A DNA stretch of 64,000 bases, from contig NC_084850.1 of the NCBI RefSeq assembly GCF_033115175.1, positions 15,035,218-15,099,217 on the forward strand, read 5' to 3'. A program made the translations under genes and the position numbers. Position 1 is the first letter of the stretch; each line of letters opens with the position of its first letter. Below are positions 1 to 55,710 of the stretch, piece after piece. The notes under the pieces are model-generated. The model saw nothing but the letters and a program-made list of their open reading frames with translations, searched no databases and was not told the DNA's origin. This DNA comes from Lepus europaeus (Eukaryota; Chordata; Mammalia; Lagomorpha; Leporidae).

Positions 1-232
1 TCTGTAATAGCATAGCCAAAATAAAAACTTAAATAATAATCTCATAGCTAGATTCACTTCGCCATCAGCGAAGTATACAGTAAGTAGAAAAAAACTCCCT
101 TTCAGACCAAAGGGAAAGAAAGTTTTAAAGTGAGAATATAGTTTTCCTCATGGGCATTGTCTACCTTAGAAAAACTACTACAGAACATGCCTGTGACTAT
201 AGACTTGTAGTTCAGGCCACCGAAGATTAGAG

Positions 233-704
233 ATGGGACACGAGCACTCCCTTGACTTGCATCCTCTGGTCTGCTTTAACACAAACCAGGAGGAAAAGAA
301 AGCTAGGCATCAGAAGCAATGGGTGGCAGGCCTATTAATGGCTGATCTGTACAGTGATCTGCCCTCAAGGAGACCCAACAGGCCAGTCCACTGCAGTGGC
401 TTTCAATGTGGTAAGCCTGGGCTTCAGCAGAAGTCAGCTTGTGAAGAGCCCTGGCAGCTCTGCCAAGAGTTGGATCACTGGAAATGGACCTGCCCTGGAG
501 TCGAACGATGCCCAGGTCAGAGCCACAGATCTTATTGGCTCTAAGCTGAAAAGCCCTTCACTCAGCCCAACTTCCAAAGTGACCACTGCAGCTGAGGGGA
601 CGGCCAAGCAGGGTAAGCAACATTGCAAGCAGAACTGTAAATTTCTTGTTAGAGATGCCCCCTGCCTTTACCTGGCCAGCTCTCCTCCCAGGCCAGCCAA
701 GTAA
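233..704 (+). pseudogene. Degraded retrovirus-like nucleocapsid/protease remnant, copy 1
   Basis: Two overlapping frames together look like the gag nucleocapsid-protease junction of a class I (gammaretrovirus-like) endogenous retrovirus. Frame A (233-544, 103 aa) has two degenerate zinc knuckles: C..CGKPG..C, with the expected His replaced by Leu, then CQELDHWKWTC, which keeps C-x4-H-x4-C but has Trp where the first Cys belongs. Frame B (354-704), shifted +1, has a segment like a retroviral aspartic protease start, in which the catalytic Asp-Thr-Gly is lost (reads FLVRDAPCLY). No pol and no LTR was recognised next to it. Inactive. The family assignment rests on motif spacing only. Confidence 0.55.
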
Positions 705-886
705 TGAAAGTCAACAGAGTGCCTTCCCCTAGGAGGTTCACACCTCCCTTAGGATATACCCCATGTGAAGAGATAGATAGGTCTGGGCCTCTTAACTTAC
801 AAGGCCTAAAGCCCAACAGATTATTATCAAGCCCCTTCTATCAGGTTCTATTTGCCTCTCAATCAGAAAACTTAATTGTAGCTTAG
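704..886 (+). other. 60-codon ORF of unknown meaning, repeated in every H copy
   Basis: An ATG ORF of 60 codons follows the NC/PR remnant. The same ORF, with the same length and stop, recurs at 2106-2288, on the minus strand at 38417-38235 and at 53605-53423. I recognise no domain. The copies differ by a few substitutions, several of them amino-acid changing, so conservation here probably reflects recent common origin and not selection. Confidence 0.3.
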
Positions 887-1569
887 ACAGCACCTTTCTT
901 AGCTCCTCTACTAATGACTCTGTCCTTTGTTCTAGACCCTGTCTAGCACACTTGGGCCTCATTCCTTTGTAATCATAACCTCCACTCTACCACCAATGGC
1001 TCTACTCCCAACCTGTGTGTACTGATGGTCCTCTTCCCCACTTAATGCTGTATAATTGTTCAGACCTGGTTAATGCTACTCTTAGGATCATTGGTTACTA
1101 TCCTCACTCTGTCTTTTATGACCTTGTCTAAATATGATCAGAGTCAGCAAACTTGGAAGGCTTCCATAGCCTTGGCAACTCATGACGACAGCCTAGGGTG
1201 GTTACTGGCGCCATAAACTAGAGTGTCAATTTGTTGGGTCAACAACAGGAGCCACTGTGCACTTGCTCCTCATGTGGGATTTCTGTCCTTAATGTGCTAT
1301 ACATTTTGATTTAATGCTATAACTAGTACTCAAACAGTATGTTTCACTTTGTGTTTCTGTGTGGGTGCAAACTGTTGAAATCTTTATACTAAATTGATCT
1401 TCTGTATATGAAGAGAATTGAAAATGAATCTTGATGTGAATGGAAGGGGAGAGGGAGCGGGAAAGGGGAGGGTTGCGGGTGGGAGGGAAGTTATGGGAAG
1501 GGGAAGCCATTGTAATCCATAAGCTGTACACTGGAAATTTATATTCATTAAATAAAGTTTTAAAAAAAA

Positions 1570-2988
1570 AGAAAAACTACTACAGAACATCCCTGTGACT
1601 ATAGACTTGTAGTTCAGGCCACCGAAGATTAGAGATGGGACACGGGCACTCCCTTGACTTGCATCCTCTGGTCTGCTTTAACACAAACCAGGAGGAAAAG
1701 AAAGCTAGGCATCAGAAGCAATGGGTGGCAGGCCTATCAATGGCTGATCTGTACAGTGATCTGCCCTCAAGGAGACCCAACAGGCCAGTCCACTGCAGTG
1801 GCTTTCAATGTGGTAAGCCTGGGCTTCAGCAGAAGTCAGCTTGTGAAGAGCCCTGGCAGCTCTGCCAAGAGTTGGATCACTGGAATTGGACCTGCCCTGG
1901 AGTCGAAGGATGCCCAGGTCAGAGCCACAGATCTTATTGGCTCTAAGCTGAAAAGCCCTTCACTCAGCCCAACTTCCAAAGTGACCACTGCAGCTGAGGG
2001 GACAGTCAAGTAGGGTCAGCAACGTTGCAGGCAGAACTGTAAATTTCTTGTTAGAGATGCCCCCTGCCTTTACCTGGCCAGCTCTCCTCCCAGGCCAGTC
2101 AAGTAATGAAAGTCAACAGGGTGCCTTCCCCTAGGAGGTTCACACCTCCCTTAGGATATACCCCATGTGAAGAGATAGATAGGTGTGGGCCTCTTAACTT
2201 ACAAGGCCTAAAGCCCAACAGATTATTATCAAGCCCCTTCTACCAGGTTCTATTTGCCTCTCAATCAGAAAACTTAATTGTAGCTTAGACAGCACCTTTC
2301 TTAGCTCCTCTACTAATGACTCTGTCCTTTGTTCTAGACCCTGTCTAGCGCACTTGGGCCTCATTCCTTTGTAATCATAACCTCTACTCTACCACCAATG
2401 GCTCTACTCCCAACCTGTGTGTACTGATGGTCCTCTTCCCCACTTAATGCTGTATAATTGTTCAGACCTGGTTAATGCCACTCTTAGGATCATTGGTTAC
2501 TATCCTCACTCTGTCTTTTATGACCTTGTCTAAATATGATCAGAGTCGGCAAACTTGGAAGGCTTCCATAGCCTTGAGAACTCATGACGACAGCCTAGGA
2601 TGGTTACTGGCGCCATAAACTAGAGTGTCAATTTGTTGGGTCAACAACAGGAGCCACTGTGCACTTGCTCCTCATGTGGGATTTCTGTCCTTAATGTGCT
2701 GTACATTGTGATTTAATGCTATAACTAGTACTCAAACAGTATTTTTCACTTTGTGTTTCTATGTGGGTGCAAACTGTTGAAATCTTTATACTAAATTGAT
2801 CTTCTGTATATAAAGAGAATTGAAAATGAATCTTGATGTGAATGGAAGGGGAGAGGGAGCGGGAGAGGGGTGGGTTGCGGGTGGGAGGGAAGTTATGGGA
2901 GGGGGAAGCCATTGTAATGCATAAGCTGTACACTGGAAATTTATATTCATTAAATAAAAGTTAGAAATAAAAAAAAATAAAAAAAAAA
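1570..2988 (+). mobile_element. Family H, copy 2: tandem 1,402-bp repeat of copy 1
   Basis: Homologous landmarks are offset by exactly 1,402 bases (233 to 1635, 704 to 2106, 1289 to 2691), so there is no net indel. The unit begins inside the element, at the equivalent of base 168, directly after the A-run of copy 1, and ends in its own A-rich tail (about 2967-2988). Copies 1 and 2 share variants absent from the minus-strand copies: gaaaaactac instead of gtaaaactac at the unit start, and Asn instead of Thr in the 60-codon ORF. This points to local duplication and not to two independent insertions. Confidence 0.8.
1635..2013 (+). pseudogene. Degraded retrovirus-like nucleocapsid/protease remnant, copy 2
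   Basis: This is the same two-frame remnant as at 233-704. The 103-codon NC-like frame is 1635-1946 with CQELDHWNWTC. The second frame (1654-2013) is cut earlier than in copy 1 by a TAG at 2011-2013, before the protease-like segment. Inactive. Confidence 0.5.
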
Positions 2989-4191: not shown

Positions 4192-4513
4192 CTGTATATA
4201 AGTATATATATTTAATTTTTGTAAACAAGCACTTGTACTCTTTGTTATTTAATGGGCCCTCTTCTATTTCCTTCATCCCCATTCTCCAGGTAGAAGTGGT
4301 GGAACCTGGATGGGGCAGGATGCAAGGAGACCAGGAGCACCAGCCCCACCATGGGTCTTATTCCTCTTTCTTGAGTAAAGCGTAAAGGAAGCAAATTTAT
4401 CAAATATTCTAGAGCAAATGAGTAGCTGTGCACTGACTACAGAATGCTCTAGGATGGTAGCTCAGGCCAGATCTCCTTATCACCTCATTGACAGCACCTC
4501 AACAGATTATTCT

Positions 4514-29196: not shown

Positions 29197-29207
29197 TTAA
29201 AAAACAA

Positions 29208-29312
29208 AAAACAGAACATGTCATGAATTTATGTGTCATCCTTACAGAGGACCATGCTAATATTCTCTATGTCCTTCCAATTTTATATATGTGCTGTTGA
29301 AGCTAGGACACA
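29208..29312 (-). pseudogene. U6 snRNA pseudogene
   Basis: The minus strand spans essentially the whole of U6 snRNA from its 5' end (about 29312) to the 3' end next to an A-rich run (about 29208). Recognisable blocks in plus text are tgtgtcatcctt, ccatgctaatattctct, ccttccaattttatatatg and tgctgttgaagc. Many substitutions across the RNA, including in the 5' domain, and the absence of a visible snRNA promoter mark it as a retroposed pseudogene. Confidence 0.88.
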
Positions 29313-35425: not shown

Positions 35426-37223
35426 AAGGGGTGGAGAAAGTGTTCAGGGCACCATCTTTTAGTCCAAAGCTAAAAGACTTATTACTTGTTGTAACTTATT
35501 TGCGAACAAGCTTGGCTTTAGAGTCAACTTCCCCATCATAAACATCAGACCATAAGGTAATTGGTGAACATTGATCTGTAAGGCAAGGGCAGGGTTTGGT
35601 GCATCCAATCCAGTTGGCAGAGCATCAGGTGAAAGCATCCTGAATCCGACATTTTATTTCAACCAGTTACTCAAATGCATTCACTATATCCCTGCTGTAT
35701 GCCAGATCACCCACAATTTAGTTATACTTCCCACCACTAGAGTCTGCCACCCAGATCTAGTTGAGTAACTAGAATTAAAACAGAACTCTGCATCCAAACT
35801 TGTAAAGGAGATCACTAGGCAACCCAATACAGTGTCAAGTCATTCTGCACTGACTCGAAGATGTCATGTAACTAACCCAGGAAGACTGTACATATAAGCA
35901 TTAGCAAGTAAGTCAGCCTACAAAGGCATCTATACCTGGAGCCACCCACAATGGTACAGACTTGACGATTCCTAGAAAGGTGAGTGGAGTAAGCTGTAAC
36001 ATTGACATTTCACTTTGCCCATTCTTTATTTGATAAAGTAAGTCTATATACTTTATATATACTATACATATACTTTAGTAGGTATACTTTCACATGCTAT
36101 ATAGACTATACATGCGTCTAATTCTCAAAAGGGAATATTTTATAGCAATTTCAAGTGTCAGTCACTACACAGCAGTAAGTACTCTATATAAGTGCTGTAA
36201 AATAAAATACAGGCAAATAAAATAGTAAGTACTCTATATAAGTGCTGTAAAATAAAATACAGGCAAATAAAATAGTAAGTACTCTATATAAGTGCTGTAA
36301 AATAAAATACAGGACAAAGTTTAGGTTGGTCTCACTCTTCTGGAGGCAGATTTAACATAAAACCCTCATGTGTATTAATGATGGTTTGCTGCAATGAAGC
36401 ATGTAACAGAAAACAAAGAGCTGGAGATGGATATTTTTTTTGGGGGGGGGATTGGTATAATAAAGGCTTAAAACCCAACATAGCAGAAATTACAGCCAGT
36501 TTCATTATAAGAAATATACCTCTAAGTTCCAGAGTCATTTTCTACAGACTTGATGACAGGCATTCTATGCTTACTTCAATACTAAGACTATTTGTACTAG
36601 ATTTCCCAGTCCCTTCCTCTTGCCTCTCCTCTGCAACTGATAAGAGTGCATCCAACTAGTTATTATCAGATATATAGTGAGTTATTTGACTTACAACAAA
36701 GAGTTGGCTTTTTTCCTATTAGTGAACATGTGAAATACATCTTTCATATTGTTCATGCTCTCCTTACTGATTCTTAATATTTTCTGAAAAGCAAGGGGAA
36801 ACACCTAGGTAAAAATTAAGGAAATGCTATTCCCTGGGGAAATGCTCTAGATGCATATGTTTTGGAGTAGAATAAATGCTGAAAGTTGCAAGGTATCAGC
36901 AAAAGTTTATTTGCAATCATTGCCTGCTTCTTCCCATGCAGATATATTCTCTGTTTAAAATATATAAAGCTGAGCTAGGACTTCTCACGCTGTTTGCAGT
37001 AAAATGTGGCTTACTATGTCTCTCTGAGGAACCACTGACAAATAAGCTCTTGTTATCCAACTTTTGCTCTGCTGAGGGTAATGATTTAGTGGTTCAGAAG
37101 GTTAATTCCTAGAGATAGTGTTGTCTTTGGCTTAAACAGATGTTGGTAGTGCTTTAATGTGGTTATCAAACTAAGTTGCCCTTCATTCATTCTTTGCTCT
37201 TGGGAGCACAGTGCATTGTTTTA
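35426..37223. other. Single-copy sequence, no gene seen
   Basis: AT-rich. Contains a 50-bp minisatellite (36174-36313). No coding region or RNA gene recognised. Confidence 0.5.
36174..36313. repeat. 50-bp minisatellite, about 2.8 units
   Basis: The word actctatata recurs at 36181, 36231 and 36281, a period of exactly 50. The first two units are identical through the whole period as read. The last unit ends at aataaaatacagg. Confidence 0.95.
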
Positions 37224-37394
37224 CTTTTTTAAACTTATTTTTTAAACTTTTATTTAATAAATATAAATTTCCAAAGTACAACATTTGGATTATAGTGGCT
37301 TTTTCCCCCCATAACCTCCCTCCCATCCACAGCCATCCCATCTCCCACTCCCTCTCTCATCCTATTCATATCAAGATTCATTTTCAATTATCTT
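37224..37394 (-). mobile_element. L1 3' terminal fragment (outermost of three stacked tails)
   Basis: Minus-oriented L1 tail (aacttttatttaataaat ... aagattcattttcaattatc). More diverged than the next two, so probably the oldest. Truncated after about 150 bp. Confidence 0.8.
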
Positions 37395-37541
37395 CTTTTT
37401 TAAACTTTTATTTAATGAATATAAATTTCCAAAGTACAGCTTATGGAATACAATGGCTTCCCCCCCAAATACTTCCCTCCCACCCACAACCCTCCCCTTT
37501 CCCGCTCCCTCTCCCCTTCCATTCACATCAAGATTCATTTT
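37395..37541 (-). mobile_element. L1 3'UTR (left part) that hosts the family H insertion
   Basis: Minus L1 tail whose sequence resumes at 44113-44323 on the other side of the 6.57-kb H element. The last 13 bases (37529-37541, caagattcatttt) are one TSD copy. Joined in mind, the two parts give a normal uninterrupted L1 3'UTR. Confidence 0.92.
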
Positions 37542-37904
37542 GTTTTTTTTTAACTTTTATTTAATGAATATAAATTTCCAATGCACAGCTTATGGATTAC
37601 AATGGCTACCCCTTCCCATAACATCCCTCCCACACGCAACCTTCCCCTCTCCCGCTCCCTCTCCCCTTCCATTCACATCAAGATTCATTTTCAATTCTCT
37701 TTATATACAGAAGATCAATTTAGTATATATTAAGTAAAGATTTCAACAGTTTGAACCCACACAGAAACACAAAATACAAAGTACTGTTTGAGAACTAATT
37801 ATAGCATTAAATCACAATGTACAGCACATTAAGGACAGAGATCCCACATGAGGAGCAAGTGCACAGTGAATCCTATTGTTGACCCAACAAATTGACACTC
37901 TAGT

Positions 37905-38096
37905 TTATGGCGCCAGTAACCACCCTAGGCTCCCGTCCTGAGTTGCCAAGGCTATGGAAGCCTTCCAAGTTTGCCGACTCTGATCATATTTAGACAAGGT
38001 CATAAAAGACAGGGTGAGGATAGTAACCAATGATCCTAAGAGTGGCATTAACCAGGTCTGAACAATTATACAGCATAAAGTGGGGAAGAGGACCAT
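37905..38096 (-). pseudogene. Possible hydrophobic (envelope-TM-like) remnant
   Basis: A 63-codon frame includes a hydrophobic run near its start (WLMPLLGSLVTILTLSF) preceding the L1 3'UTR. Position after an NC/PR remnant and a central hydrophobic stretch would fit the end of a retroviral env after large deletion, but there is no second motif to support this. The 3' half of the frame is L1 3'UTR. Treat as a weak suggestion. Confidence 0.25.
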
Positions 38097-38234
38097 CAGT
38101 ACACACAGGTTGGGAGTAGAGCCATTGGTGGTAGAGTAGAGGTTATGATTACGAAGGAATGAGGCCCAAGTGCGCTAGACAGGTTCTAGAACAAAGGACA
38201 GAGTCATTATTAGAGGGGCTAAGAAAGGTGCTGT

Positions 38235-38417
38235 CTAAGCTACAATTAAGTTTTCTGATTGAGAGGCAAATAGAACCTGATAGAAGGGGCTTGATAATAA
38301 TCTGGTGGGCTTTAGGCCTTGTAAGTTAAGAGGCCCAGACCTATCTATCTCTTCACATGGGGTACATCCTAAGGGAGGTGTGAACCTCCTAGGGGAAGGC
38401 ACCCTGTTGACTCTCAT
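38235..38417 (-). other. 60-codon ORF of unknown meaning in family H copy 3
   Basis: Counterpart of the ORF at 704-886, with identical length. No domain recognised. Confidence 0.3.
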
Positions 38418-38887
38418 TACTTAGAGGCCTGGGAGGAGAGCTGGCCAGGTAAAGGCAGGTGGCATCTCTAACAAGAAATTTACAGTTCTGCCTGCAATGT
38501 TGCTGACCCTGCTTGGCTGTCCCCTCAGCTGCAGTGGTCACTTTGGAAGTTGGGCTGAGTGAAGGGCTTTTCAGCTTAGAGCCAATAAGATCTGTGGCTC
38601 TGACCTGGGCGTCCTTCGACTCCAGGGCAGGTCCATTTCCAGTGATCCAACTCTTGGCAGAGCTGCCAGGGCTCTTCACAAGCTGACTTCTGCTGAAGCC
38701 CAGGCTTACCACATTGAAAGCCACTGCAGTGGACTGGCCTGTTGGGTCTCCTTGAGGGCAGATCACTGTACAGATCAGCCATTAATAGGCCTGCCACCAA
38801 TTGCTTCTGATGCCTAGCTTTCTTTTCCTCCTGGTTTGTGTTAAAGCAGACCAGAGGATGTAAGTCAAGGGAGTGCCCGTGTCCCAT
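38389..38887 (-). pseudogene. Degraded retrovirus-like nucleocapsid/protease remnant, copy 3
   Basis: The clearest of the four copies. The NC-like frame (38887-38576) carries CQELDHWKWTC after a first degenerate knuckle. The second frame (38766-38389, +1 relative) reads FLVRDATCLYLASSPPRP where a gammaretrovirus-like protease would carry its catalytic Asp-Thr-Gly-Ala segment. The Asp and Gly context is destroyed, so it cannot be an active protease. The two frames overlap out of register, implying at least one ancestral frameshift. Confidence 0.6.
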
Positions 38888-39043
38888 CTCTAATCTTCGG
38901 TGGCCTGAACTACAAGTCTATAGTCACAGGCATGTTCTGTAGTAGTTTTACTAAGGTAGACAATGCCCATGAGGAAAATTATATTCTCACTTTAAACTTT
39001 CTTTCCCTTTGGTCTGAAAGGGAGATTTTTTCTACTTACTGTT

Positions 39044-39064
39044 TACTTCACTGATGGTGAAGTA
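39044..39064 (-). other. Small perfect hairpin in family H body (copy 3)
   Basis: An 8-bp stem with a 5-nt loop (catca in element sense). In this copy the fifth stem pair is A:T, whereas copies 1 and 4 have G:C at the same pair. A second hairpin (stem ccctt/aaggg class, loop cagacc) lies about 25 nt further 3' in the element. Confidence 0.6.
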
Positions 39065-40321
39065 AATCTAGCTATGAGATTATAAGTTAAGCTCTTATTT
39101 TGTCTATGCTATTACAGAAAAATGTTAGCCATCTCTTTTATAAGGTCTAAAGATTAAATTGTGCATCCTGCAGATTCCTTCATAATAGAATTAGTTTCCT
39201 ACCTTGAAGAGAATAGAGAAATGAAAGAACAAGTTGGGCTTAGAATAGAGAAATGAGGGAGCAAGTCCTAGATCGCTTGCTGACAATAGCAATATTACAT
39301 GGATAGTTAGAAAATAGCTTCAACCATTAGATAACAACTTAAGAAAACACTTACCAGAAGGTCCAATGCCTTCTATAAATTTTAAGAATCATGTATTTGA
39401 AAACACCTCTTAAATATCTAACATGGTGTAGTTTGTTTAACCAGTAAACTTAAGCACAACCATCTAAAATGTTTTTAGTTTCTTTCTACCAACAAGTATA
39501 AAACATATGATACAGTGATTCAGGTCACATGAATTAAAATGTATCTTTGATTAAATTTAGCAGCTTAAATTTATGGACAATCTTATCTATAAGCCATTTA
39601 AAATAAAACTCTTAATAAAATTTCCCCATGTGGACATACAATATGTACACATATATAACATAACATAATAGACCAATATAGCAATTTTAATAATAGCTTT
39701 TAAAGTCTTTAACTCTTTTTGTAGATTGCCAATTGATTTGAATTGCTTTTTGTTTTTAGTAACCTCAGTTAACCATACTTTCTCTCAGTTGGTACTGTTA
39801 ATACATTATTGGCTTTATCTGTTTACAGAGCCATCCCAAAGTACTGAATACAATAAAAGTGGCTGGAAAAAGTCCATAGGAACCTATAGGAGGACAGCTA
39901 AACACAGAACCAACAACACTTTAATTTTATGAGCAGCACATCATATATAACTATGGATGACAAAAGACTTTAAGTCACATGTTTAAAATTATAAATTCAT
40001 CAACCAACAAGAGGCACTTGCTTACTTCACAGTATTTTTGAAAGCACCTGTAGGATTTTACAAGTATTTAACCCTTTAGGCCTCTGGGGCTTTCTCATTA
40101 AGATAACTATCATGTCTTGTAACACAAGATCATTAGACTTTTAAATTCTCAAACATTTGTATTAATAGCATTTTCCATTATAGAAACTTAAAATTTAGTA
40201 CCACATCACATCTTGACAGTCCTTCTAATATAATCCAAATAGCCTGATGAGTTGGTGTCTCTATAAGATGAGAGACCTAGGTCCTTCGATTTTTTCAGTT
40301 GGGCCCAAACAGGAAAAACCA

Positions 40322-41721
40322 TGGGCATTATAAGAAACAATGACCTGATCAGCTCTTGTCCTGACTCGATGTACAATATAATACTTTATCCTTTTTAGTA
40401 TTTGTTGTTGTTGTTCTAGTACTAGTGGTTGAACTCTTTAATTAACACACATTTATTTTAGGTGTTTAAATTTTAACTGAAAAGTGACTCCTCTTAATTA
40501 TAAGAGTGGGAAAAAGAGAAGGAGGAGATGTACAATTTGGGACATGCTCAATCGAACTTGCCCCAAATGGTGGAGTTAGAAATGTGCCAGGGGATTCCAA
40601 TACAATCCCATCAATGTGGCATGTACCAATGCCATCTCACTAGTCCAAGTGATCAATCTCAGTTCACAATTGATGACTCTGATAGTTCTAAGAGTCAAAG
40701 GGATCACAGAAACAAGACTAGTGTCTGCTAATACTAACTGATAGAATCAAAAAGGGAGAGAACGATCCAACATGGGAAGTGGGAGACACAGCAGACTCAT
40801 AGAATGGCAGATGTCCTAAATATCACTCTGGCCTCAGAATCAGCCCTTAAGGCATTCAGACCTGGCTGAAGAGCCCATGAGAGTATTTTAGGCATGGAAA
40901 GCCAAGACACCCTGGAAAAAAAAAAGACCTAAATGAAAGATCTCTGAGTGAGATCCCAGTGGAAAGAGCGGGGACATCAAAGAAGGAGGTTCCCTTCTCT
41001 GAAGGGAGGAGAGAACTCCCACTTTGACTATGACCCTGTTGGAATAAGATCAAAGTCGGCGAACCCTAAAGGCTTCCATAGCCTTGGCAACTCATGACTA
41101 GAGCCTAGGGAGATTACTGACGCCATAAACAAAAGTGTCAAATTGTTAAATCAACAACAGGAGTCACTGTGTACTTACATCTCACGTGGGATCTGTCCTT
41201 AATGTGTTGTCCAATGTGAAGTAATGCTATAACTAGTACTGAAACAGTATTTTTACACCTTGTGTTTCTGTGTGGGTGCAAACTGATGAAATCTTTACTT
41301 AGTATATACTGAATCGATATCATGTACATAAAGATAATTGTAAATGAAAAAAAAACTTGGTGTTAAATTGGAAATTGCATAGAAAATTAATCAATTCTTA
41401 AAAAACTATCATGTAGGATCTCTGTCCTTAATGTGCTGTACATTGTGATTTAATGCTATAACTAGTACTCCAACATTTTTTTTTTTTTTCGCTTGGTGTT
41501 GCTATGTGCAGGCAAACTGTTGAAATCTTTACTTAATATATACTAAACTGATTTTCTGTATATAAAGAGAATTGAAAATGAATCTTGATGTGAATGGAAG
41601 GGGAGAGGGAGTGGAAAAGCGGAGGGTTGTGGTTGGGAGGGAAGTATTGGTGGGGGGAAGCCATTGTAATCCATAAGCTTTACTTTGGAAATTTATATTC
41701 ATGAAATAAAAGTTAAAAAAA
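40322..41721 (+). mobile_element. L1 3'UTR insertion (dimeric type) inside family H copy 3
   Basis: 1.4-kb 5'-truncated L1 consisting of 3'UTR. It holds the upstream module ending atgaaaaaaaaacttggtg (about 41350), then a second related module (about 41410-41721) with the G-rich tract and A-tail. TSD gaaaaacca at 40313-40321 and 41722-41730. The empty site is visible in family H copy 4, where gaaaaacca occurs once, at 55497-55505, with the same flanks. Confidence 0.95.
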
Positions 41722-42109
41722 GAAAAACCAAAGACCAAGATTTACTGGAAATTTTAGAGTCCAGATTGTTTGAAACTTTGATTTTTGAATGCCTGTCAAG
41801 AATGCCAAGAAGGCTCAAAATCCAAAATATCTGGTTGAAATAAGATTCCTTAAAATCATGACATAACATAGACCAAATTTGATCATTGTTACAAGGTGAT
41901 TATTCAAATCTTTGAAAATAAGGACATATTTAAATAACCCATAGCTCTTAATAAAAATTCAGCTGTTTTTGAACAATTAGAATTTAACAGACATCAAGAG
42001 AACATAATAGATTACTTTAACACATTGCTTTAACAGAGCATCAGAGTTTAATTCTATGTCAAAGAGAAATTGAGCTTCCTGTGATCTTTTGCTGTGAGGT
42101 TTCCTTCCT

Positions 42110-43009
42110 TTACCTTCTTTCATATTGATGACCATGTTTCTGTGTTTCTGTGTGTAACACATCTTTAAGCATCTTTTGCAGGGCAGGACGAGTGGCAACA
42201 AATTCTTTCAATTTCTGTTTGCTGTGAAAGGTCTTTATTTCACCTTCATTCACAAATGAGAGCTTTACAGGATATAATATTCTGGGATGGCAGTTTTTCT
42301 CTCTTAGTACTTGGGCTATGTCTTGCCATTCTCTTCTAGCTTGTAGGGTTTCTGATGAGAAGTCTGCTGTGAGTCTAATTTGAGATCTTCTGAGAGTAAT
42401 CTGACATTTCTCTCTTGCACATTTTAGAATCTTTTCTTTATGTTTCACTGTGGTGAGTTTGATTACAACGTGTCGTGGTGAGAATCTCTTTTGGTCATGT
42501 TTATTAGGGGTTCTATGAGCTTCCTGTACTAGGTTGTCTCTGTCCTTCTTCAAACTTGGGAAGTTCTCTGCAAGTATCTCACTGAAAATGCCTTCTAATC
42601 CTTTCTCCCTCTCCATGCCTTCAGGAACTCCTAGAACCCGAATGTTGGGTTTTTTAATAGTATCTTGTAGATTCCTGACAATATTTTTTAGATTTCTAAT
42701 TTCTTCTTCTTTTCTTTGGTTTGACTTTATACTTTCCTGTGCTCTGTCTTCTAAGTCAGATATTCTCTCTTCTGCTTCACCCATTCTGTTTTTAAGGCTC
42801 TCTAATATGTTTGTCATTTGGTCTATTGAATTTTTCATTTCATTATGATTTCTCGTCACTATCACAGTTTCTTGTTCTACTAGTTGTTTCATTTCATTTT
42901 GATTCCTCCTTAATATTTCATTTTCGTGTGAGAGATTTTCTATCTTGTCCATTAAGGATTTCTGTAGTTCAAGAATTTGTTTTTGAGAACTTCTTAATGT
43001 TCTTATCAA
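42110..43009 (-). CDS. L1-ORF1: L1 ORF1 protein (main frame), in family H copy 3
   Basis: The RNA-binding chaperone ORF1p of LINE-1, which coats L1 RNA as trimers in the cytoplasm. The uninterrupted frame is 299 codons from a TTG. Residues about 5-118 form a Glu/Lys/Asn-rich coiled coil, 119-200 the RRM-like domain (starts KKPNIRVLGVPEG), and 208-288 the C-terminal domain (SSETLQARREW, KLSFVNEGEIKTF, TRPALQKMLKDVL). Typical mammalian ORF1p is about 340 aa. The missing N-terminus lies in the preceding frame (43095-43009 from an internal ATG), which ends at A_AAA_AAT TGA. The TTG may not be the true start. About nine of ten residues match the copy at 47065-47964. After its stop the L1 sequence continues only to about 42073. 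Confidence 0.85.
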   Translation of the reverse strand: MIRTLRSSQKQILELQKSLMDKIENLSHENEILRRNQNEMKQLVEQETVIVTRNHNEMKNSIDQMTNILESLKNRMGEAEERISDLEDRAQESIKSNQRKEEEIRNLKNIVRNLQDTIKKPNIRVLGVPEGMEREKGLEGIFSEILAENFPSLKKDRDNLVQEAHRTPNKHDQKRFSPRHVVIKLTTVKHKEKILKCAREKCQITLRRSQIRLTADFSSETLQARREWQDIAQVLREKNCHPRILYPVKLSFVNEGEIKTFHSKQKLKEFVATRPALQKMLKDVLHTETQKHGHQYERR

Positions 43010-44112
43010 TTTTTTGAGATCCGCTCTTGCATTTCTTCTATCTCATCATCTTCATAATCTTGAATTGGGGTGTCTTTTTCATTTGGGAGCGTCATAATGT
43101 CTTCCTTGTTCTTGTTTCCTTGGTTTTTTCGTTTGTTGTTTGACCTACTGGAGATATTCTTTGGTTTCTTCACTGTGGTGTTTTTTCTTGTTACACTATG
43201 ACTCTAGAATAAGGGGACTGTCTGCTTTTGATGGAGCCTTAGAGACTTGAGATGGGTGTGGCCTGAGATCTCTGTTTGGTTCCTCATGGTTAAGGGTGTG
43301 TCAAAGGTGACACTCCCAGTTTAGGCGCGGTAAATCTCTCTAATTGGAGGTGGTTAGCAGGCGAATGATATACCCACAGGAGCCAGAGATCAGAAGCTCT
43401 TTCCCAAGGACCACACAGGGAATCTGTGCTGCCCTCAGTGTGGGCTCCAATTCTCCTGCAGACTCCCACTGGGTTGCCAAGGTTACCGGATTGTAGCGTC
43501 TCTGGAGAGTACTCACGTGAATTCCATGAGTTCTCTCCCCCACCGTCTCTTTATTCACAGTCTCAGTTCATTAGCACCACACATTCACTAGGTCCTAATC
43601 TCCTGTTATTTCACGCCCCCAGAGTCAGGTTTTTCTGGTAGGCTGAGGGTGGGTGCACACCTGAGTTCCCTCTGCTTATGACATATGTCCAAAATGGCGC
43701 CTGCTCTTTGTCTCTCTCGCGTTTGAGAGGTGAGTGGAGAGAAACTCATGTCCATATCCGTCACTTTTTTTTTTCTCTCTCTTCTAGTTAGCCTGATGAG
43801 TTTTCCCCACGGAATTTCAAGCCTTGTTCCCTCTAGTCTCCTCTTTCCACTTTCCCGCTGGTGTCTCGGGCTATTGAGGTTTGGCTCACTTCACGTTCCA
43901 GCGCTGGTGTGTTGAGTCTGCTGCTGGTGTCCCGAACTTGGGCTCCCACGCTCTCCACGCAGGTCCACTGTGAATCACTAGTTCCGGAAGAGTTTCCTCT
44001 GCTGTTTCTTCCCCTACTCTTCCTTGAACCTGCAGTATCTCCACTTTTATTAAACTGTCTCTCCCCGGACTATCAGTGTGCTCCCTTCGTATTCTGCTAT
44101 CTTGCCCGACTC
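43010..44112 (-). promoter_or_regulatory. L1 5'UTR (internal promoter region) of family H copy 3
   Basis: About 1.1 kb, GC-richer than its surroundings, with an element start (gagtcgggcaagatagcag in sense) recognisably related to the start of the L1 at 46158. It ends at the ORF1 region and includes a short N-terminal ORF1 frame. The ATG used in the other copy is lost here (the corresponding bases read agg). Promoter function is inferred from L1 biology only. Confidence 0.75.
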
Positions 44113-44323
44113 CAAGATTCATTTTCAATTCTCTTTATATACAGAAGATCAATTTAGTATATATTAAGTAAAGATTTCAACAGTTTGCACCTACACAGAA
44201 ACACAAAATACAAAGTACTGTTTGAGAACTAATTATACCGTCAATTCACATAGTACAACACATTAAGGACAGAGATCCTACATGAGGAGTAAGTGCACAG
44301 TGACTCCTGTTGTTGATTTAACA
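44113..44323 (-). mobile_element. L1 3'UTR (right part) that hosts the family H insertion
   Basis: Continuation of 37395-37541 beyond the inserted H element. The first 13 bases are the second TSD copy. Truncated at about 44323, where a CSINE follows. Confidence 0.92.
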
Positions 44324-44336
44324 TAAATTTATTTTT

Positions 44337-44659
44337 TAAAAGTTATTTTATTTATTTGAAAGACAGAGTTACAGAGAGAGGTAGATACAGAGAGAGAGAT
44401 CTTCCATCCGCTGGTTCACCCCCCAGATGGCTGCAACTGCCAGAGCTCCACCAATCTGAAACTAGGAGCCAGGAGCCTCTTCCAGGTCTCCCACGTGGGT
44501 GAAGGGACCCATGGACTTGGGCCATCGTCCACTGCCTTCCCAGGTCATAGCAGAGAGCTGGATTGGAAGAGGAGCAGCCAGGACTAAAACCGGTGCCCAT
44601 ATGGGATGCCAGTGCCTCAAGGCGGGGCTTTAACCTGCTGCACCACAGCGCCGGCCCCT
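44337..44659 (-). repeat. CSINE (minus) with 13-bp TSD
   Basis: Full reverse CSINE ending at its sense head ggggccggcgctgtgg. TSD taaatttattttt at 44324-44336 and 44660-44672. Confidence 0.95.
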
Positions 44660-44674
44660 TAAATTTATTTTTAC

Positions 44675-44917
44675 AGCTTTATTTTTTATTTGAATTGCAG
44701 AGTTATAGAGAGGCAGAAGCGAAGAGAGAGAGAGAACAAGTCTCCCACACAGGTCCAGGGGCTCAAGGACTTGGGCCATCTTCCACTGCTTTTTCAGGCC
44801 ATAGCAGAGAGATGGATCAGAAGTGGAGCAGCCAAGACTCGAACCACTGCCTATAATGATGCCAGCACTGCAGTCAGCCCCCTCAGCTGCTATGCCACAG
44901 TGCCCCACCCCCCACCA
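44675..44917 (-). repeat. CSINE (minus), internally deleted
   Basis: Tail and head are present, but the central body between the (GA)n and the tctcccacacaggt segment is missing about 90 bp. Confidence 0.85.
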
Positions 44918-45811
44918 GTGCATTATTACACAAGGCATTCCAGCTTCCCTCTATGGGGATCTAGCAGAGCTGAACATACAACAGCAATGACTCCTGCCAG
45001 AACAGGCTCTTCTGGGGTCACTATGAATACTGGCAATATACAGCATAGAAACTGATAATGACAAACTTGATGTTTAAAAAGATCTGTAAATATTTGCAAA
45101 TGTTTAAAGATTTGGAAAGTCTATTGATGATCTGATTCAATAATCTGTAAAACTACTTACTCATTAGATGTTCAAATCCTTCAGAAGCTCTATGGACTGA
45201 CCTCTTGACGGCTTATTCTGTTGCATAATATCTTCTTGGCTGTATCATTTCCAAAATGTCTGGAATAATTATTTTTGTAGTCAGTATGTTCAAAACCACC
45301 AAACAGAATCAACATTGGGCTAGAGTGCAACTATATAGCAAGCTCAATTTTGCAAATACTCATAAAATCTACTACAACCAGCTGAGCAGAACAGACTATC
45401 CCCTAGACTAGGAGAGACTACTTTCACCAAATCATGGTTTCCCATTTTTCTGGAAAATTACTACCAATTCAATGCCTTTGAAATAATGGCATCCAGATAG
45501 CACAGTGTCATTTCAAAATCAAAGTGTAGTGGTTGACAACTTATTACATGTCCAAACACCACAGGGAATAAGTAGATATAAGCATGTCCTGGTTTTATGG
45601 AACTTAGTTATTTTGGGGAGCTCAGGGTTACATGTATGAAACAATTTGTGAGCAATCAGCACCAGAAAGGAGATGGCTTAGTTCTAAAGTATGTTTGACT
45701 CCTCCATTCTCTTAATCAGCATACTACACTTGATCATAGCCAAAAGGCCGAGAAGCAATATCAGTCAGCATACTGTCTTCATAAAGACTTGTGAATATTA
45801 ATCAATTTAGG
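44918..45811. other. Single-copy sequence with a U2 fragment, no gene seen
   Basis: Nothing recognised except the 40-nt U2-like stretch at 45721-45760. Confidence 0.5.
45721..45760 (-). pseudogene. U2 snRNA 5'-end fragment
   Basis: The plus text contains actacacttgatcatagcc followed by aaaaggccgagaagcaat, the reverse complement of the first ~40 nt of U2 snRNA with about two changes. Similarity stops abruptly after that, so this is a truncated retroposed fragment and not a gene. Confidence 0.85.
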
Positions 45812-46078
45812 TGGGGCAAGTGCTGTGGCACAACAGGTTAAAGCTGTGGCCTACAGCACCAGCATCCCATATGGGTGCTGATTCGAATCCCGGCTGCTCT
45901 GCTTCTGATCCAGCTCTGCTATGGCCTGGGAAAGCAGTACAAGGTGGTGCAAGTCCTTGAGCCCCTGCACCCACGTGGTAGCCCTGGAAGATGCTCCTGG
46001 CTCCTGGCTTTGGATCAGCTCAGCTCTGGCTGTTGCAGTCATTTGGGGACTGAACCAGCGGATGGAAGACCTCTCTCC

Positions 46079-46114
<36 letters not shown>

Positions 46115-46157
46115 CTCTACCTGTATCTGTAATTCTTTCAAATAAATAAAATAAATC
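45812..46157 (+). repeat. CSINE abutting an L1 5' end
   Basis: Full CSINE (ggggcaagtgctgtggc ... aaataaataaaataaatctt). Its last tail bases are followed without a gap by the first bases of the L1 5'UTR. Confidence 0.95.
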
Positions 46158-46675
46158 TTGGCAGAGCCAAGATGGCGGATAGTGAGGATGTGCACCAATA
46201 GTCTGGGAAAATTTAGTTTCATAAAAGTGGAATTACTGTAGCCTCAGGAAAAGACTCAAGAAAAAAACTGCAGAGGAAACGCTTCTGGATCTAGTGGATG
46301 TGACACAGAGAACCTACAGGGAGCCCACCGCGTGGAAGCCCCGCTGCAGGAGCCAAGCCGCAGAATCTCGCCAGTGCGGGAACGAAAGGGAGGTAAGACA
46401 AAAGCCTCAGAAACCCGAGACATTGGTGGGGAAAGGCATAGGCCTCTCTCTCCACTTGAGCAAAACAAAGAGCAGGCACCATTTTACATATGTAAAGTGG
46501 CAACAAGTACACAAACTCAGTAACTTTGGGTCTATGGTGAAACTTGAGAACACATTGAGGCCTGCAAAAACTCTTTGTGTGGTCCCAGGGGTAGATCAAA
46601 CAAATACTCACAGAAGCCAGATTTCAACTACCCTCAATTCCACTCAGCTATGTGGAATTACTTCCCAACTGAGTC

Positions 46676-46713
<38 letters not shown>

Positions 46714-46927
46714 GAGAGATCCAGCAAGGAGCAAGGGAGAGAACAATCTGGGTGAGTCACTTTTTACACAGACTTAAACCTGAAGAATCAAGCAGAGCTC
46801 TCTGGCCACACCCATCACAGCCTCTAAGGATCCATCAAAGCAGACACCCCACTTAGAGGCATAGTATAACGAGAAAAAAACACCACAGCAAAAAAAAAAA
46901 AAACAAAAAACATAAATTATCTCCAAC
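46158..46927 (+). promoter_or_regulatory. L1 5'UTR (internal promoter region)
   Basis: About 770 bp before the ORF1 ATG, shorter than the one at 43010-44112. A (GA)n run lies at about 46680-46712. The first bases include gccaagatggcgg, reminiscent of YY1-type sites at the start of other mammalian L1s. That functional reading is inference. Confidence 0.7.
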
Positions 46928-47068
46928 ATGCCAAACAACAAATGTAGAAGCCGAGGCAACAAGAGCAAGGAAGACACAATGATGCCCCCAAATGAACAAG
47001 ACACCCCAATCCAAGATTATGAAGATGAAGAGATAGAGGAAATGCAAGAGCGGATCTCAAAAAATTGA
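46928..47068 (+). CDS. L1-ORF1: Short N-terminal ORF1 frame ending at A_AAA_AAT TGA
   Basis: ATG at 46928 opens 46 codons (MPNNKCRSRGNKSKED...), basic then acidic, as expected for the disordered N-terminus of ORF1p, and stops at TGA 47066-47068. The bases immediately before the stop are A AAA AAT (47059-47065), and the -1 frame there enters the 299-codon ORF1 at exactly 47065. The summed product would be about 345 aa, close to a normal ORF1p. Without a shift, this is only a 46-aa peptide. Confidence 0.6.
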   Translation: MPNNKCRSRGNKSKEDTMMPPNEQDTPIQDYEDEEIEEMQERISKN

Positions 47069-47964
47069 TAAGAACATTAAGAAGTTCTCAAAAACAAATT
47101 CTTGAACTACAGAAATCCTTAATGGACAAGATAGAAAATCTCTCTCATGAAAATGAAATATTAAGGAGGAATCAAAATGAAATGAAACAACTAGTAGAAC
47201 ATGAAACTGTGATAGTGACAAGAAACCACAATGAAATGAAGAACTCAATAGATCAAATGACAAACACATTAGACAGCCTTATAAACAGAATGGGTGAAGC
47301 AGAAGAGAGAATATCGGACTTAGAAGACAGAGAACAGGAAAGGAAACAGTCAAATCAAAGAAAAGAAGAAGAAATCAGAAATCTAAAAAATATTGCCAGG
47401 AATCTACAGGATACTATTAAAAAACCCAACATTCGGGTTCTAGGAGTTCCTGAAGGCCTGGAGAGGGAGAAAGGATTAGAAGGCCTTTTTAGTGAGATAC
47501 TAGCAGAAAATTTCCTAGGTTTGGAGAAGGACAGAGACATCCTAGTACAGGAAGCTCATAGAACCCCTAATAAACATGACCAAAAGAGATTCTCACCACG
47601 ACACGTCGTAATCAAACTCACCACAGTGAAACATAAAGAAAAGATGCTAAAATGTGCAAGCGAGAAATGTCAGATTACTCTCAGAGGATCTCAAATTAGA
47701 CTCACAGCTGACTTCTCATCAGAAACCCTACAAGCTAGGAGAGAATGGCGAGATACAGCCCAGGTACTAAGAGAGAAAAACTGCCATCCCAGAATATTAT
47801 ATCCTGAAAAACTCTCATTTGTGAATGAAGGTGAAATAAAGACCTTTCGCAGCAAACAGAAATTGAAAGAATTTGTTGCCACTCGTCCTGCCCTGCAAAA
47901 GATGCTTAAAGATGTGTTACATACAGAAACACAGAAACACGGTCACCAATATGAAAGAAGGTAA
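47065..47964 (+). CDS. L1-ORF1: L1 ORF1 protein (main frame), internally deleted L1
   Basis: 299 codons from TTG with no break, the same length as the minus-strand ORF1 at 42110-43009. Coiled coil about 5-118, RRM-like domain about 119-200 (KKPNIRVLGVPEG), C-terminal domain about 208-288 (TLQARREW, EKLSFVNEGEIKTF, TRPALQKMLKDVL). The basic tail HGHQYERR precedes the stop. In family terms this binds L1 RNA. Here the element has lost ORF2, so the protein could only act in trans. The TTG start is probably not real; see the N-terminal frame just upstream. Confidence 0.87.
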   Translation: MIRTLRSSQKQILELQKSLMDKIENLSHENEILRRNQNEMKQLVEHETVIVTRNHNEMKNSIDQMTNTLDSLINRMGEAEERISDLEDREQERKQSNQRKEEEIRNLKNIARNLQDTIKKPNIRVLGVPEGLEREKGLEGLFSEILAENFLGLEKDRDILVQEAHRTPNKHDQKRFSPRHVVIKLTTVKHKEKMLKCASEKCQITLRGSQIRLTADFSSETLQARREWRDTAQVLREKNCHPRILYPEKLSFVNEGEIKTFRSKQKLKEFVATRPALQKMLKDVLHTETQKHGHQYERR

Positions 47965-48032
47965 AGGAAGGAAACCTCACAGCAAAAGATCACAGGAATC
48001 TCAAAGCATATATTAGAAAATATTTTTGGCAA

Positions 48033-48344
48033 ATTGCAGGGCAAAGTTACTCCTTCTCAATAGTCACATTGAATGTTAATGGCTTGAACTGTCCAGTTAA
48101 AAGACACCGATTGGCTGATTGCGTTAAGAAACAAAACCCATCTTTTTGCTGCCTACAAGAAACTCATCTTTCCAACAATGATGCATACAGACTGAAAGTG
48201 AAAGGCTGGAAAAATATATACCATGCCAACAGAAATGAAAAAAGAGGGGGCGTAGCCATCTTAATATTGGACAACATAAACTTTACCACAAAAACTCTGG
48301 CATTTGGAACTGGCTCAAGATGTACTGTATATAAAGAGAATTGA
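48033..48344 (+). pseudogene. L1-ORF2: L1 ORF2 N-terminal remnant (start of endonuclease)
   Basis: The frame begins at the position of the ORF2 start, where ATG has become ATT (48033), and reads through the endonuclease N-terminus with NVNGLN (catalytic Asn region) and QETHL (catalytic Glu). It then leaves L1 sequence near 48295 and stops at 48344 in unrelated or 3'UTR sequence. About 85 of roughly 1,270 codons remain. Confidence 0.85.
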
Positions 48345-48486
48345 AAATGAATCTTGATGTGAATGGAAGGGGAGAGGGAGCAGGAAAGGGGAGGGTTGCA
48401 GGTGGGAGGGAAGTTATGGGGGGAGCCATTGTAATCCATAAGCTGTACATTGGAAATTTATATTCATTAAATAAAAGTTTAAAAAA

Positions 48487-52100: not shown

Positions 52101-52727
52101 GCAAGATATAGTTACCGGCAAAGACTTCCTAGAAAATACCCCAGAAGCACAGGCAGTCAAAGCCAAAATTAACATTTGGGATGACATCAAATTGAGAAGT
52201 TTCTGTAGTGCAAAAGAAACAGGAGAGTGAAGAGGCAACCGACAGAATGGGAAAAAATACTTGCAAACTACGCAAGAGATAAACGGTTGATAACCAGAAT
52301 CTACAAAGAAATCAAGAAACTCCACAATGTGAAAACAAACAACCCACTCAAGACATGGGCCAGGGACCTCTATAGACATTTTTCAAAAGAGGAAATCCAA
52401 ATGGCCAAAAGACACATGAAAAATGTTCAAGATCACTAGCAATCAGAGAAATGCAAATCAAAACCACAATGAGGTTTCACCTCACCCAGGTTAGAATGTC
52501 TCACATTCAGAAATCTACCAACAACAGATGCTGGAGAGGATGTGGAGGAAAAGGGACACTAACCCACTGTTGGTGGGAATGCAAACTGGTAAAGCCACTA
52601 TGGAAGTCAGTCTGGAGATTCCTCAGAAACCTGAATATAACCCTACCATACAACCCAGCCATACCACTCCTTGGAATTTACCCAAAGGAAATTAAATTGG
52701 CAAACAAAAAAGCTGTCTGCACCTTAA
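49149..52727 (+). pseudogene. L1-ORF2: L1 ORF2 (endonuclease-reverse transcriptase), multiply broken and 3'-truncated
   Basis: ATG 49149 opens the APE-type endonuclease (FNVNGLN, KETHL), which is stopped at 49397. The endonuclease continues in another frame (49669-49980, with RIDHILGH and the catalytic SDHKG motif). The reverse transcriptase core is one open frame, 50401-51525 (374 codons), with [33 protein letters not shown] and the catalytic [11 protein letters not shown]. The C-terminal cysteine motif ([18 protein letters not shown]) is in 52451-52727. At least five stops or frameshifts separate these pieces. The 3' end is missing about 75 codons. ORF2p normally nicks target DNA and primes reverse transcription. 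This copy cannot make it. Confidence 0.92.
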
Positions 52728-53422
52728 TATTTATTTATTTATTTATTTAACTTTTATTTAATGAATATAAATTTCCAGTGTACAGCTTATGGATTACAAT
52801 GGCTTCCTCCTCCCATAACTTCCCTCCCACCCGCAACCCTCCCCTCTCCTGCTCCCTCTCCCCTTCCATTTGCATCAAGATTCATTTTCAATTCTCTTTA
52901 TATACAGAAGATCAATTTAGTATAAAGATTTCAACAGTTTGCACCCACATAGAAACACAAAGTGAAACATACTGTTTGAGTACTAGTTATAGCATTAAAT
53001 CACAATGTACAGCACATTAAGGACAGAGATCCCACATGAGGAGCAAGTGCACAGTGGCTTCTGTTGTTGACCCAACAAATTGACACTCTAGTTTATGGCG
53101 CCAGTAACCATCCTAGGCTGTCGTCATGAGTTGCCAAGGCTATGGAAGCCTTCCAAGTTTGCCGACTCTGATCATATTTAGACAAGGTCATAAAAGACAG
53201 GGTGAGGATAGTAACCAATGATCCAAAGAGTGGCCTTAACCAGGTCTGAACAATTATACAGCATTAAGTGGGGAAGAGGACCATCAGTACACACAGGTTG
53301 GGAGTAGAGCCATTGGTGGTAGAGTAGAGGTTATGATTACAAAGGAATGAGGCCCAAGTGCGCTAGACAGGGTCTAGAACAAAGGACAGAGTCATTACTA
53401 GAGGAGCTAAGAAAGGTGCTGT

Positions 53423-53605
53423 CTAAGCTACAAGTAATTTTTCTGATTGAGAGGCAAATAGAACCTGATAGAAGGGGCTTGATAATAATCTGGTGGGCTT
53501 TAGGCCTTGTAAGTTAAGAGGCCCACACCTATCTATCTCTTCACATGGGGTATATCCTAAGGGAGGTGTGAACCTCCTAGGGGAAGGCACTCTGTTGACT
53601 TTCAT
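53423..53605 (-). other. 60-codon ORF of unknown meaning in family H copy 4
   Basis: Counterpart of 704-886, with the same length and stop. Confidence 0.3.
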
Positions 53606-53697
53606 TACTTGGCTGGCCTGGGAGGAGAGCTGGCCAGGTAAAGGCAGGGGGCATCTCTAACAAGAAATTTACAGTTCTGCCTGCAATGTTGCTGACC

Positions 53698-54076
53698 CTA
53701 CTTGACCATCCCCTCAGCTGCAGTGGTCACTTTGGAAGTTGGGCTGAGTGAAGGGCTTTTCAGCTTAGAGCCAATAAGATCTGTGGCTCTGACCTGGGCA
53801 TCCTTCGACTCCAGGGCAGGTCCATTTCCAGTGATCCAACTCATGGCAGAGCTGCCAGGGCTCTTCACAAGCTGACTTCTGCTGAAGCCCAGGCTTACCA
53901 CATTGAAAGCCACTGCAGTGGACCGGCCTGATGGGTCTCCTTGAGGGCAGATCACTGTACAGATCAGCCATTAATAGGCCTGCCACCCATTGCTTCTGAT
54001 GCCTAGCTTTCTTTTCCTCCTGGTTTGTGTTAAAGCAGACCAGAGGATGCAAGTCAACGGAGTGCCCAAGTCCCAT
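53698..54076 (-). pseudogene. Degraded retrovirus-like nucleocapsid/protease remnant, copy 4
   Basis: The NC-like frame (54076-53765, 103 codons) has CHELDHWKWTC. The second frame (53955-53698) is stopped before the protease-like segment by a TAG, as in copy 2. Inactive. Confidence 0.5.
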
Positions 54077-55710
54077 CTCTAATCTTTGGTGGCCTGAACT
54101 ACAAGTCTATAGTCACAGGCATGTTCTGTAGTAGTTTTACTAAGGTAGACAATGCCCATGAGGAAAATTATATTCTCACTTTAAAACTTTCTTTCCCTTT
54201 GGTCTGAAAGGGAGGTTTTTTCTACTTACTGTATACTTCGCTGATGGCGAAGTAAATCTAGCTATGAGATTATAATTTAAGTTCTTATTTTGTCTATTAC
54301 AGAAAATGTTAGCCATCTCTTTTTAAGGTCTAAAGATTAAATTGTGCATCCTACAGATTCCTTTATAATAGAATTAGTTTCCTACCTTGAAGAGAATAGA
54401 GAACTGAAAGAACAAGTTGGGCTTAGAATAGAGAAATGAGGGAGCAAGTCCTAGATCGCTTGCTGACAATAGCAATATTACATGGATAGTTAGAAAATAG
54501 TTTCAACCATTAGATAACAACTTAAGAAAACACTTACCAGAAGGTCCAATGCCTTCTATAAATTTTAAGAATCATGTATTTGAAAACACCTCTTAAATAT
54601 CTAACATGGTGTAGTTTGTTTAGCCAGTAAACTTAAGCACAACCATCTAAAATGTTTTTAGTTTCTTTCTACCAACACGTTTAAAACATATGATACACAG
54701 ATTCAGGTCACACAAATTAAAATGTATCTTTGATTGATTTTAGCAGCTTAAATTTATGGACAATCTTATCTATAAGCCATTTAAAATAAAACTCTTAATA
54801 AAATTTCCCCATGTGGACATACAATATGTACACACATATAACATAACATGATAGACCAATATAGCAATTTTAATAATAGCTTTTAAAATCTTTAACTCTT
54901 TTTGTAGATTGCCAATTGATTTGAATTGCTTTTTCTTTTTAGTAACCTCAGTTAACCATACTTTCTCTCAGTTGGTACTGTTAATACATTATTGGCTTCA
55001 TCTGTTTACAGAGGCATCCCAAAGTACTGAATACAATAAAAGTGGCTGGAAAAAGTCCATAGGAACCTATAGGAGGACAGCTAAACACAGAACCAACAAC
55101 GCTTTAGTTTTATGAGCAGCACATCATATATAACTGTGGATGACAAAAGACTTTAAGTCGCCATGTTTAAAATTATAAATTCATCAACCAACAAGAGGCA
55201 CTTGCTTACTTCACAGTATTTTTGAAAGCACCTGTAGGATTTTACAAGTATTTAACCCTTTAGGCCTCTGGGGCTTTCTCATTAAGATAACTATCATGTC
55301 TAATAACACAAGATCATTAGACTTTTTAATTCTCAAACATTTGTATTAATAGCATTTTCCATTATAGAAACTTAAAATCTGGTACCACATCACATCTTGA
55401 CAGTCCTTCTAATATAATCCAAATAGCCTGATTAATTGGTGTCTCTATAAGATGAGAGACATAGGTCCTTCGATTTTTTCAGTTGGGCCCAAACTAGAAA
55501 AACCAAAGTCCAGGATTTACTGGAAATTTTAGAGACCAGATTGTTTGAAACTTTGATTTTTTGAATGCCTGTCAAGAATGCCAAGAAGGCTCAAAATCCA
55601 AAATATCTGGTTGAAATAAGATTCCTTAAAATCATGACATAACATAGACTTAATTTGATTATTGTTACAAGGTGATTATTCAAATCTTTGAAAATAAGCA
55701 CATATTTAAA

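Follow-up and report, generated by a model that had tools for sequence, protein, structure and literature searches.

Half-L1 (HAL1) elements are described as non-autonomous derivatives of LINE-1 (L1) that encode only ORF1p and arose several times (PMC5753468), and HAL1 families are given for guinea pig and marmoset, whereas the row of young families for rabbit contains no HAL1 (PMC3183009). SVA and LAVA elements are described as composite, non-autonomous elements mobilised in trans by L1 proteins, SVA containing a HERVK10-derived part (PMC5753468, PMC7353768). Here, we analyzed 64,000 nucleotides of the Lepus europaeus genome (NC_084850.1, positions 15,035,218 to 15,099,217; hereafter the window, to which all plain coordinates refer), whose minus strand harbors a chimeric retroelement, copy A (37542..44112; 6.57 kb, ~5.17 kb without a nested L1). 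Its order is L1 5' untranslated region (UTR), open reading frame 1 (ORF1), non-L1 body, L1 3'UTR, and A-tail. The observations gathered below make it likely that copy A belongs to an ORF1-only, half-L1-like composite family that descends from a founder with a lost L1 span, whose ORF1p acts in cis and whose RNA is copied in trans by the ORF2p of L1.

Along the minus strand, copy A opens with the L1 5'UTR (43147..44112), followed by the ORF1 region (42110..43146) bearing the Pfam domains Transposase_22 and Tnp_22_dsRBD. Comparisons within the window agreed with a preliminary description of the stretch, made before the present analysis, in which these two parts had been recognized. The same description had ended the L1 homology at 42073; we place its last base at 42070, 40 nt past the ORF1 stop and within the ORF1–ORF2 linker (42070..42109 in copy A). 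Beyond this point ~2.65 kb of non-L1 sequence separates the linker from the L1 3'UTR. This body comprises a 5' part (41731..42069) and a remainder (38005..40312) that is AT-rich and then turns into a 48% GC part, which includes a weakly gag-like piece (38579-38917). The body/3'UTR junction, earlier located near 38005, falls at 38004/38005, and the last 0.46 kb of the L1 3'UTR together with the A-tail (37542..38004) completes the element. A perfect 13-bp target-site duplication (TSD), AAAATGAATCTTG, lies on the minus strand at 44113..44125 on the 5' side and at 37529..37541 on the 3' side, surrounded by a host L1 3'UTR upstream (44126..44330) and downstream (37395..37528) of the insertion. The two flanks, when joined, align unbroken to other L1 3'UTRs of the window, which corresponds to the empty site. 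The A-tail, the duplication, and the resumption of the host 3'UTR on both sides, all reported previously, are thereby retained. Since AAAATGAATCTTG is a common L1 3'UTR motif present at 10 places in the window, this TSD alone constitutes weak evidence, and the case for insertion rests on the exact ends (the L1 5' start and the A-tail) and the seamless empty site more than on the length of the repeat.

Searches of the assembly from which the window was taken (2.93 Gb, 649 contigs) revealed the same architecture at dispersed sites. A 351-base probe spanning the ORF1/body junction produced 850 first-look candidates, and among the 40 that were scored, copy A included, 39 matched over bases 1-351 and one over 3-351, at 98-100%. 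The body/3'UTR junction probe produced 2,012 candidates; 40 of them were scored and span no fewer than 349 of its 351 bases at 97-100%. A probe inside the body produced 1,652, of which 40 were also scored. These first-look figures are undercounts, because an exact 42-mer taken from the very start of the body is present at 4,230 genome places (0 for the reversed control). When every fifth of the first 100 listed 42-mer places was sampled, all of them on a single contig, the ORF1 end was directly upstream of the body start in 20 out of 20, and across 21 compared copies the junction falls at an identical base, with only scattered single-base differences there. Copies were fetched from the 39 best-scoring other places, 20 at 7.45 kb and the remaining 19 at 1.45 kb, and were chosen by likeness to copy A. 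Out of the 20, 17 are colinear through ORF1, body, and 3'UTR, among them L011, which bears an internal deletion, and L019, which contains an inserted stretch; the other three (L015, L016, and L020) are without part of the body or the 3' end in the fetched stretch, and 15 of the 20 reach the L1 5' start. A 3'UTR match 3' of ORF1 was present in 18 of the 20 (that of L016, at only 84.5%, may belong to another L1), and ORF2 was found between ORF1 and the 3'UTR in none of these 18.

Exact flank matches of at least 10 bp, taken as TSDs, were observed in 9 of the 15 copies with both ends found (copy A included), against 4 of 208 pairs in a swapped-flank control. The TSDs of the other copies are unrelated in sequence, apart from a common one in L012 and L013, which are probably one duplicated insertion, so that the nine TSD-bearing copies represent eight independent insertions. 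The preliminary description had read copy A as one retrotransposed unit of half-L1 architecture and had called for a genome search with probes across both junctions. The ends, the empty site, and the dispersed copies with their own TSDs bear out the single unit; the recurrence of both junctions at dispersed sites establishes a multi-copy family, the junction first put at 42073 being far from unique to this locus; and the retention of ORF1 with no ORF2 before the 3'UTR agrees with the half-L1 architecture.

The ORF1 of copy A had been regarded as intact, which did not hold: AGG occupies the initiator site at 43144-43146, and the frame is broken by one base in an A-run near codon 46, the same A-run being found in the neighboring L1 at 46148-48486. 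An open stretch remains at 42113-43009, with 299 codons from TTG or 280 from an internal ATG. Elsewhere in the family, ORF1 is open for at least 340 codons from ATG (344-345 codons) in 7 of 38 other copies, a count that leaves out copy A and L013. L013 was dropped from the ORF1 counts as the probable duplicate of L012, and L015 and others were dropped for coverage below 80%. In 19 copies, variants confined to a single copy (singletons) comprised 142 replacement or stop changes to 57 silent ones, as opposed to 28:39 for shared variants (p=2.9e-5), and the contrast persisted after the removal of CpG-type sites (p=4.0e-6). ORF1 frames 1 and 2 exhibited no such difference in these copies; reverse frame 2, which shares its third positions with the coding frame, gave p=0.011. 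Across 24 control frames of the body and 3'UTR the lowest p was 0.027, and since the body frames display no clear pattern of the ORF1 type, the body behaves as non-coding. A replicate with 19 other copies again separated singletons (118:40) from shared variants (35:28; p=0.0093), as did all 38 copies with copy A included (215:74 and 64:51, p=3.3e-4). Consistently, in an ORF1 tree with 12 ORF2-bearing L1s as outgroup (one of 13 L1s was dropped), the internal chimera branches, stem excluded, carried 36:51 and the terminal ones 385:217 (p=8.7e-5). For the L1s on the same tree, the values were 11:14 and 110:63 (p=0.079). Shifted frame 1 revealed no difference in this test (p=0.78), and shifted frame 2 went in the opposite direction (p=0.035). 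Judged by these substitution patterns, it appears that ORF1 stayed functional for the most part in the source elements during the spread of the family, and exchange with L1s could explain part of the pattern. The most simple reason for such retention would be that ORF1p acts mainly on its own RNA.

Other explanations for the locus and the family differ considerably in how well they accommodate these data. That copy A might be a one-off chimera, produced by a template switch at 42070, by which the reverse transcriptase left a body-bearing RNA for an L1 RNA during its insertion, agrees with the window, in which copy A alone reaches the junction (copies B, C, and D, detailed below, end or are cut within the body), but it is extremely improbable given a junction found at 40 of 40 scored places (copy A included) and in all 20 of the sampled ones, with its position identical across the 21 compared copies. 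This recurrence rules out a one-off switch for copy A; such a switch may still describe the founder. Recombination or deletion at the DNA level between an L1 and a resident endogenous retrovirus (ERV) at the locus, with no retrotransposition, could draw on the L1 3'UTRs on both sides of copy A and on the commonness of AAAATGAATCTTG in them. It is nevertheless very improbable, as an L1 5' start and an A-tail mark the exact limits of copy A, no break shows where its flanks are joined, and the TSDs elsewhere are unrelated; dispersed copies with their own TSDs rule it out for the family, and for the founder it is possible. A more serious, though on balance unlikely, alternative holds that ORF1 is a passenger, with ORF1p and ORF2p both provided in trans and the silent-biased shared variants derived from conversion or recombination with L1s that are themselves under selection. 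Several observations favor it, or otherwise weigh against an ORF1-only family with a cis-acting ORF1p. ORF1 is open in just 7 of 38 copies, and 6 of the 15 copies with both ends are without a TSD of at least 10 bp. As many as 60 of 115 shared minor ORF1 alleles, compared with 23 of 289 singletons, also occur in 13 sampled L1s, and without these alleles the contrast fades (shared 35:20, single 197:69; p=0.14), so that some of the ORF1 signal could stem from exchange or conversion with L1s. Dropping L1-like alleles is nonetheless not a clean test, because older copies that keep ancestral alleles would presumably look L1-like as well. Stops are created by 6 of the 115 shared variants and by 10 of the 289 singletons; five of the six shared stops are at mutation-prone CpG-type sites, which makes parallel mutation likely for them.

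The relation to ORF2-bearing L1s bears on the passenger alternative in both directions. When 38 chimera ORF1s were compared with 12 ORF2-bearing L1s, which had been found by their likeness to a neighbor termed E, the two sets split cleanly with none misplaced (support 0.986), which weighs against a passenger. With 14 further L1s added, drawn from 82 L1 places with the chimera-type linker letter, the best split misplaces copy A and one ORF2-bearing locus, L098, which groups with the chimeras, and support falls to 0.158, which favors the passenger alternative. L098 (G000:C6:67575419-67576705) is an ORF1–ORF2 L1 locus in which the ORF2 start follows ORF1; its ORF1 is closer to the chimeras (mean 0.062) than E-type L1s (0.079), and it is the nearest sampled L1 of that set. 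It could possibly represent the parental type or a recombinant. The family also contains two 3'UTR variants (copies L009-L028), 9 of 18 copies being 88.5-92.3% identical to the distal patch of copy A and 9 of 18 being 80.1-86.8% identical, which a single unmixed lineage does not explain. The distal 3'UTR patch of copy A is itself 93% like the host L1, and the 3' ends of the family may have been exchanged with L1s. Gene conversion between this patch and the host L1 was considered as well and is weakened by the recurrence of the patch type in 9 of the 18 copies, which gives it the appearance of a family variant. For the body, a non-retroviral nature, in which the body would be captured or decayed sequence of another kind with no role beyond that of a spacer or an extended 3'UTR, has a little less than an even chance, and a retroviral origin, on sequence comparison, is about evenly poised. 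The body had been termed ERV-like, a label that searches of families, PDB sequences, and the protein database did not confirm. No retroviral family was detected by Pfam in nine body pieces and then six, the PDB sequences returned no retroviral match and one chance match, and the protein database search with the gag-like piece gave one candidate and none scored. Body pieces examined by tblastn reached a lowest E of 0.14, and the body DNA had only chance-length matches to 12 fetched gag loci. The zinc-knuckle scan detected 13 window places with at least three of four positions, which gives no support, as 20 Markov simulations produced 4-14 and four of the 13 are one site repeated in four family copies. 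The body frames, as noted, exhibit no protein-coding constraint. The proposal of a captured retroviral segment finds weak support in the 113-residue piece of copy A (38579-38917), which at 7 of 10 loci (L055 and L059 of the 12 were dropped) aligned with gag frames at their C-terminal end, with 1-8 of 300 shuffles as good. These seven matches are not independent, because the gag loci resemble each other; at the other three, the longest frame is probably not the gag frame, which is interrupted there. The same piece of copy B aligned less well at the same loci, where 10-74 of 300 shuffles did equally well, and another body piece found no support against the gag open frames.

In the proposed sequence of events, the founder L1 would have lost the span from the ORF1–ORF2 linker to the last 0.46 kb of the 3'UTR, and the 2.65-kb non-L1 segment would have taken its place, in an order that we infer. 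RNA presumably transcribed from the L1 5'UTR of the family would make ORF1p, probably acting mainly on the RNA that encodes it, and would end in a poly(A) tail. Because the family is without ORF2, an L1 would supply ORF2p in trans, nicking the target DNA and reverse-transcribing the chimeric RNA, and L1-type target duplications, A-tails, and 5' truncation of copies would be the outcome of this copying. The presence of TSDs and A-tails, as well as of L1 5' ends and truncation, is consistent with target-primed reverse transcription by L1 ORF2p. Mobilisation in trans, already put forward in the preliminary description, thus follows indirectly from these marks and from L1 biology. In the two larger segments of the body, 16 copies differ pairwise by 3.7-4.2% on average, which, at neutral mammalian rates, suggests a rough age of several million years, an estimate biased downward since the copies were picked for likeness to copy A.

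Within the window, three further copies belong to the family. Copy B (52740..55710, minus strand) ends within the body and is 95.6% identical to copy A over the longer piece; copy C (1570..2980, plus strand) begins in the body directly after the tail of copy D (1..1569, plus strand), which continues past the window edge and was probably inserted into copy C. Copies A, B, C, and D have one common body/3'UTR junction and 96.7-97.9% identity in the 38006-39100 stretch, and are read as separate insertions because their 3' flanks differ from each other. On one side, the region of copy B (52720-55720) adjoins an L1 at its ORF2 end; the other flank does not continue that L1, no TSD was seen there, and a target deletion at its insertion is likely. 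The two parts of the copy A body are separated by a 5'-inverted L1 3' end of 1.4 kb on the plus strand (40322..41721), with the 9-bp duplication GAAAAACCA at 40313..40321 on its 5' side and at 41722..41730 on its 3' side. Copy B does not contain this L1 and shows the empty site; the nested L1, unmentioned in the preliminary description, entered the body of copy A at a later time. A second ORF1-bearing element without most of ORF2 occupies 46148-48486, in the order L1 5'UTR, ORF1, ~290 nt of ORF2, ~22 nt unmatched, and the last 168 nt of the L1 3' end. Three head-to-tail 150-bp L1 3'-end copies at 37238-37691 comprise the end of copy A, that of the host L1, and one more; a 50-bp unit is repeated 2.9 times at 98% at 36174-36318, and a U6 small nuclear RNA match (63.4 bits), probably a retrocopy, lies at 29205-29309 on the minus strand. 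In the genome, a PF02093 search yielded 1,454 candidates; of these, 150 gag p30 matches were scored, and the majority of those listed have no internal stop, which implies that many class I ERVs are present there.

The family offers a natural experiment, on a large scale, in the competition for the L1 machinery by an RNA that has no reverse transcriptase of its own. If ORF1 was retained because ORF1p remains with the RNA that encodes it, the cis role of each of the two proteins, ORF1p and ORF2p, becomes testable separately from genome data. With its thousands of sites, the body may also influence RNA stability, polyadenylation, or silencing, and the two junctions provide simple markers for annotating the L1-rich genomes of this group. 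No leporid ORF1-only composite family was described in the literature searched, whose coverage is partial and does not extend to Repbase or Dfam, so that novelty is provisional. Patterns for the junction, the body, and the L1 3' end had no match in viral and prokaryotic collections. It is conceivable, though we hold it only tentatively, that the family exemplifies an undescribed composite class, in which a retrovirus-derived non-coding body stands in for ORF2, ORF1 is selected in cis, only ORF2p is borrowed, copies number in the thousands, and the cis roles are separated.

Compared with known systems, the family resembles autonomous LINE-1 in its 5'UTR, ORF1, 3' end, TSDs, A-tails, and 5' truncation, and departs from it in having no ORF2 between ORF1 and the 3'UTR in all 18 copies. 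It differs from ERV or long terminal repeat (LTR) elements in that the body starts fused to ORF1 (20 of 20 sampled), and in 36000-46000, where at least 60 direct-repeat families occur, the 20 largest contained no paired LTRs around the body, a survey that could miss strongly diverged LTRs. With single-event template-switch chimeras it has in common the joining of L1 and, here, putatively ERV-like sequence in one insertion, whereas its junctions are inherited by thousands of copies. Like SVA and LAVA, it is composite and non-autonomous, and it would share their mobilisation in trans by L1 proteins; unlike them, it possesses an L1 5'UTR and ORF1 as its 5' half. No hexamer or variable-number tandem repeat (VNTR) array was found in copy A, the sole overlapping tandem array at the score threshold being the 150-bp L1 3'-end unit at 37238-37691. 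The closest correspondence is with HAL1: the family is L1-derived, with its 5'UTR, ORF1, and 3' end homologous to the L1s of the window and the genome; it is non-autonomous, with ORF1 only and ORF2 absent (18 of 18); and it is multi-copy with L1-type insertions. The family thus works like HAL1 and displays the HAL1 features tested, and it is distinguished by its large foreign body, 2.65 kb of non-L1 sequence placed between ORF1 and an L1 3' end.

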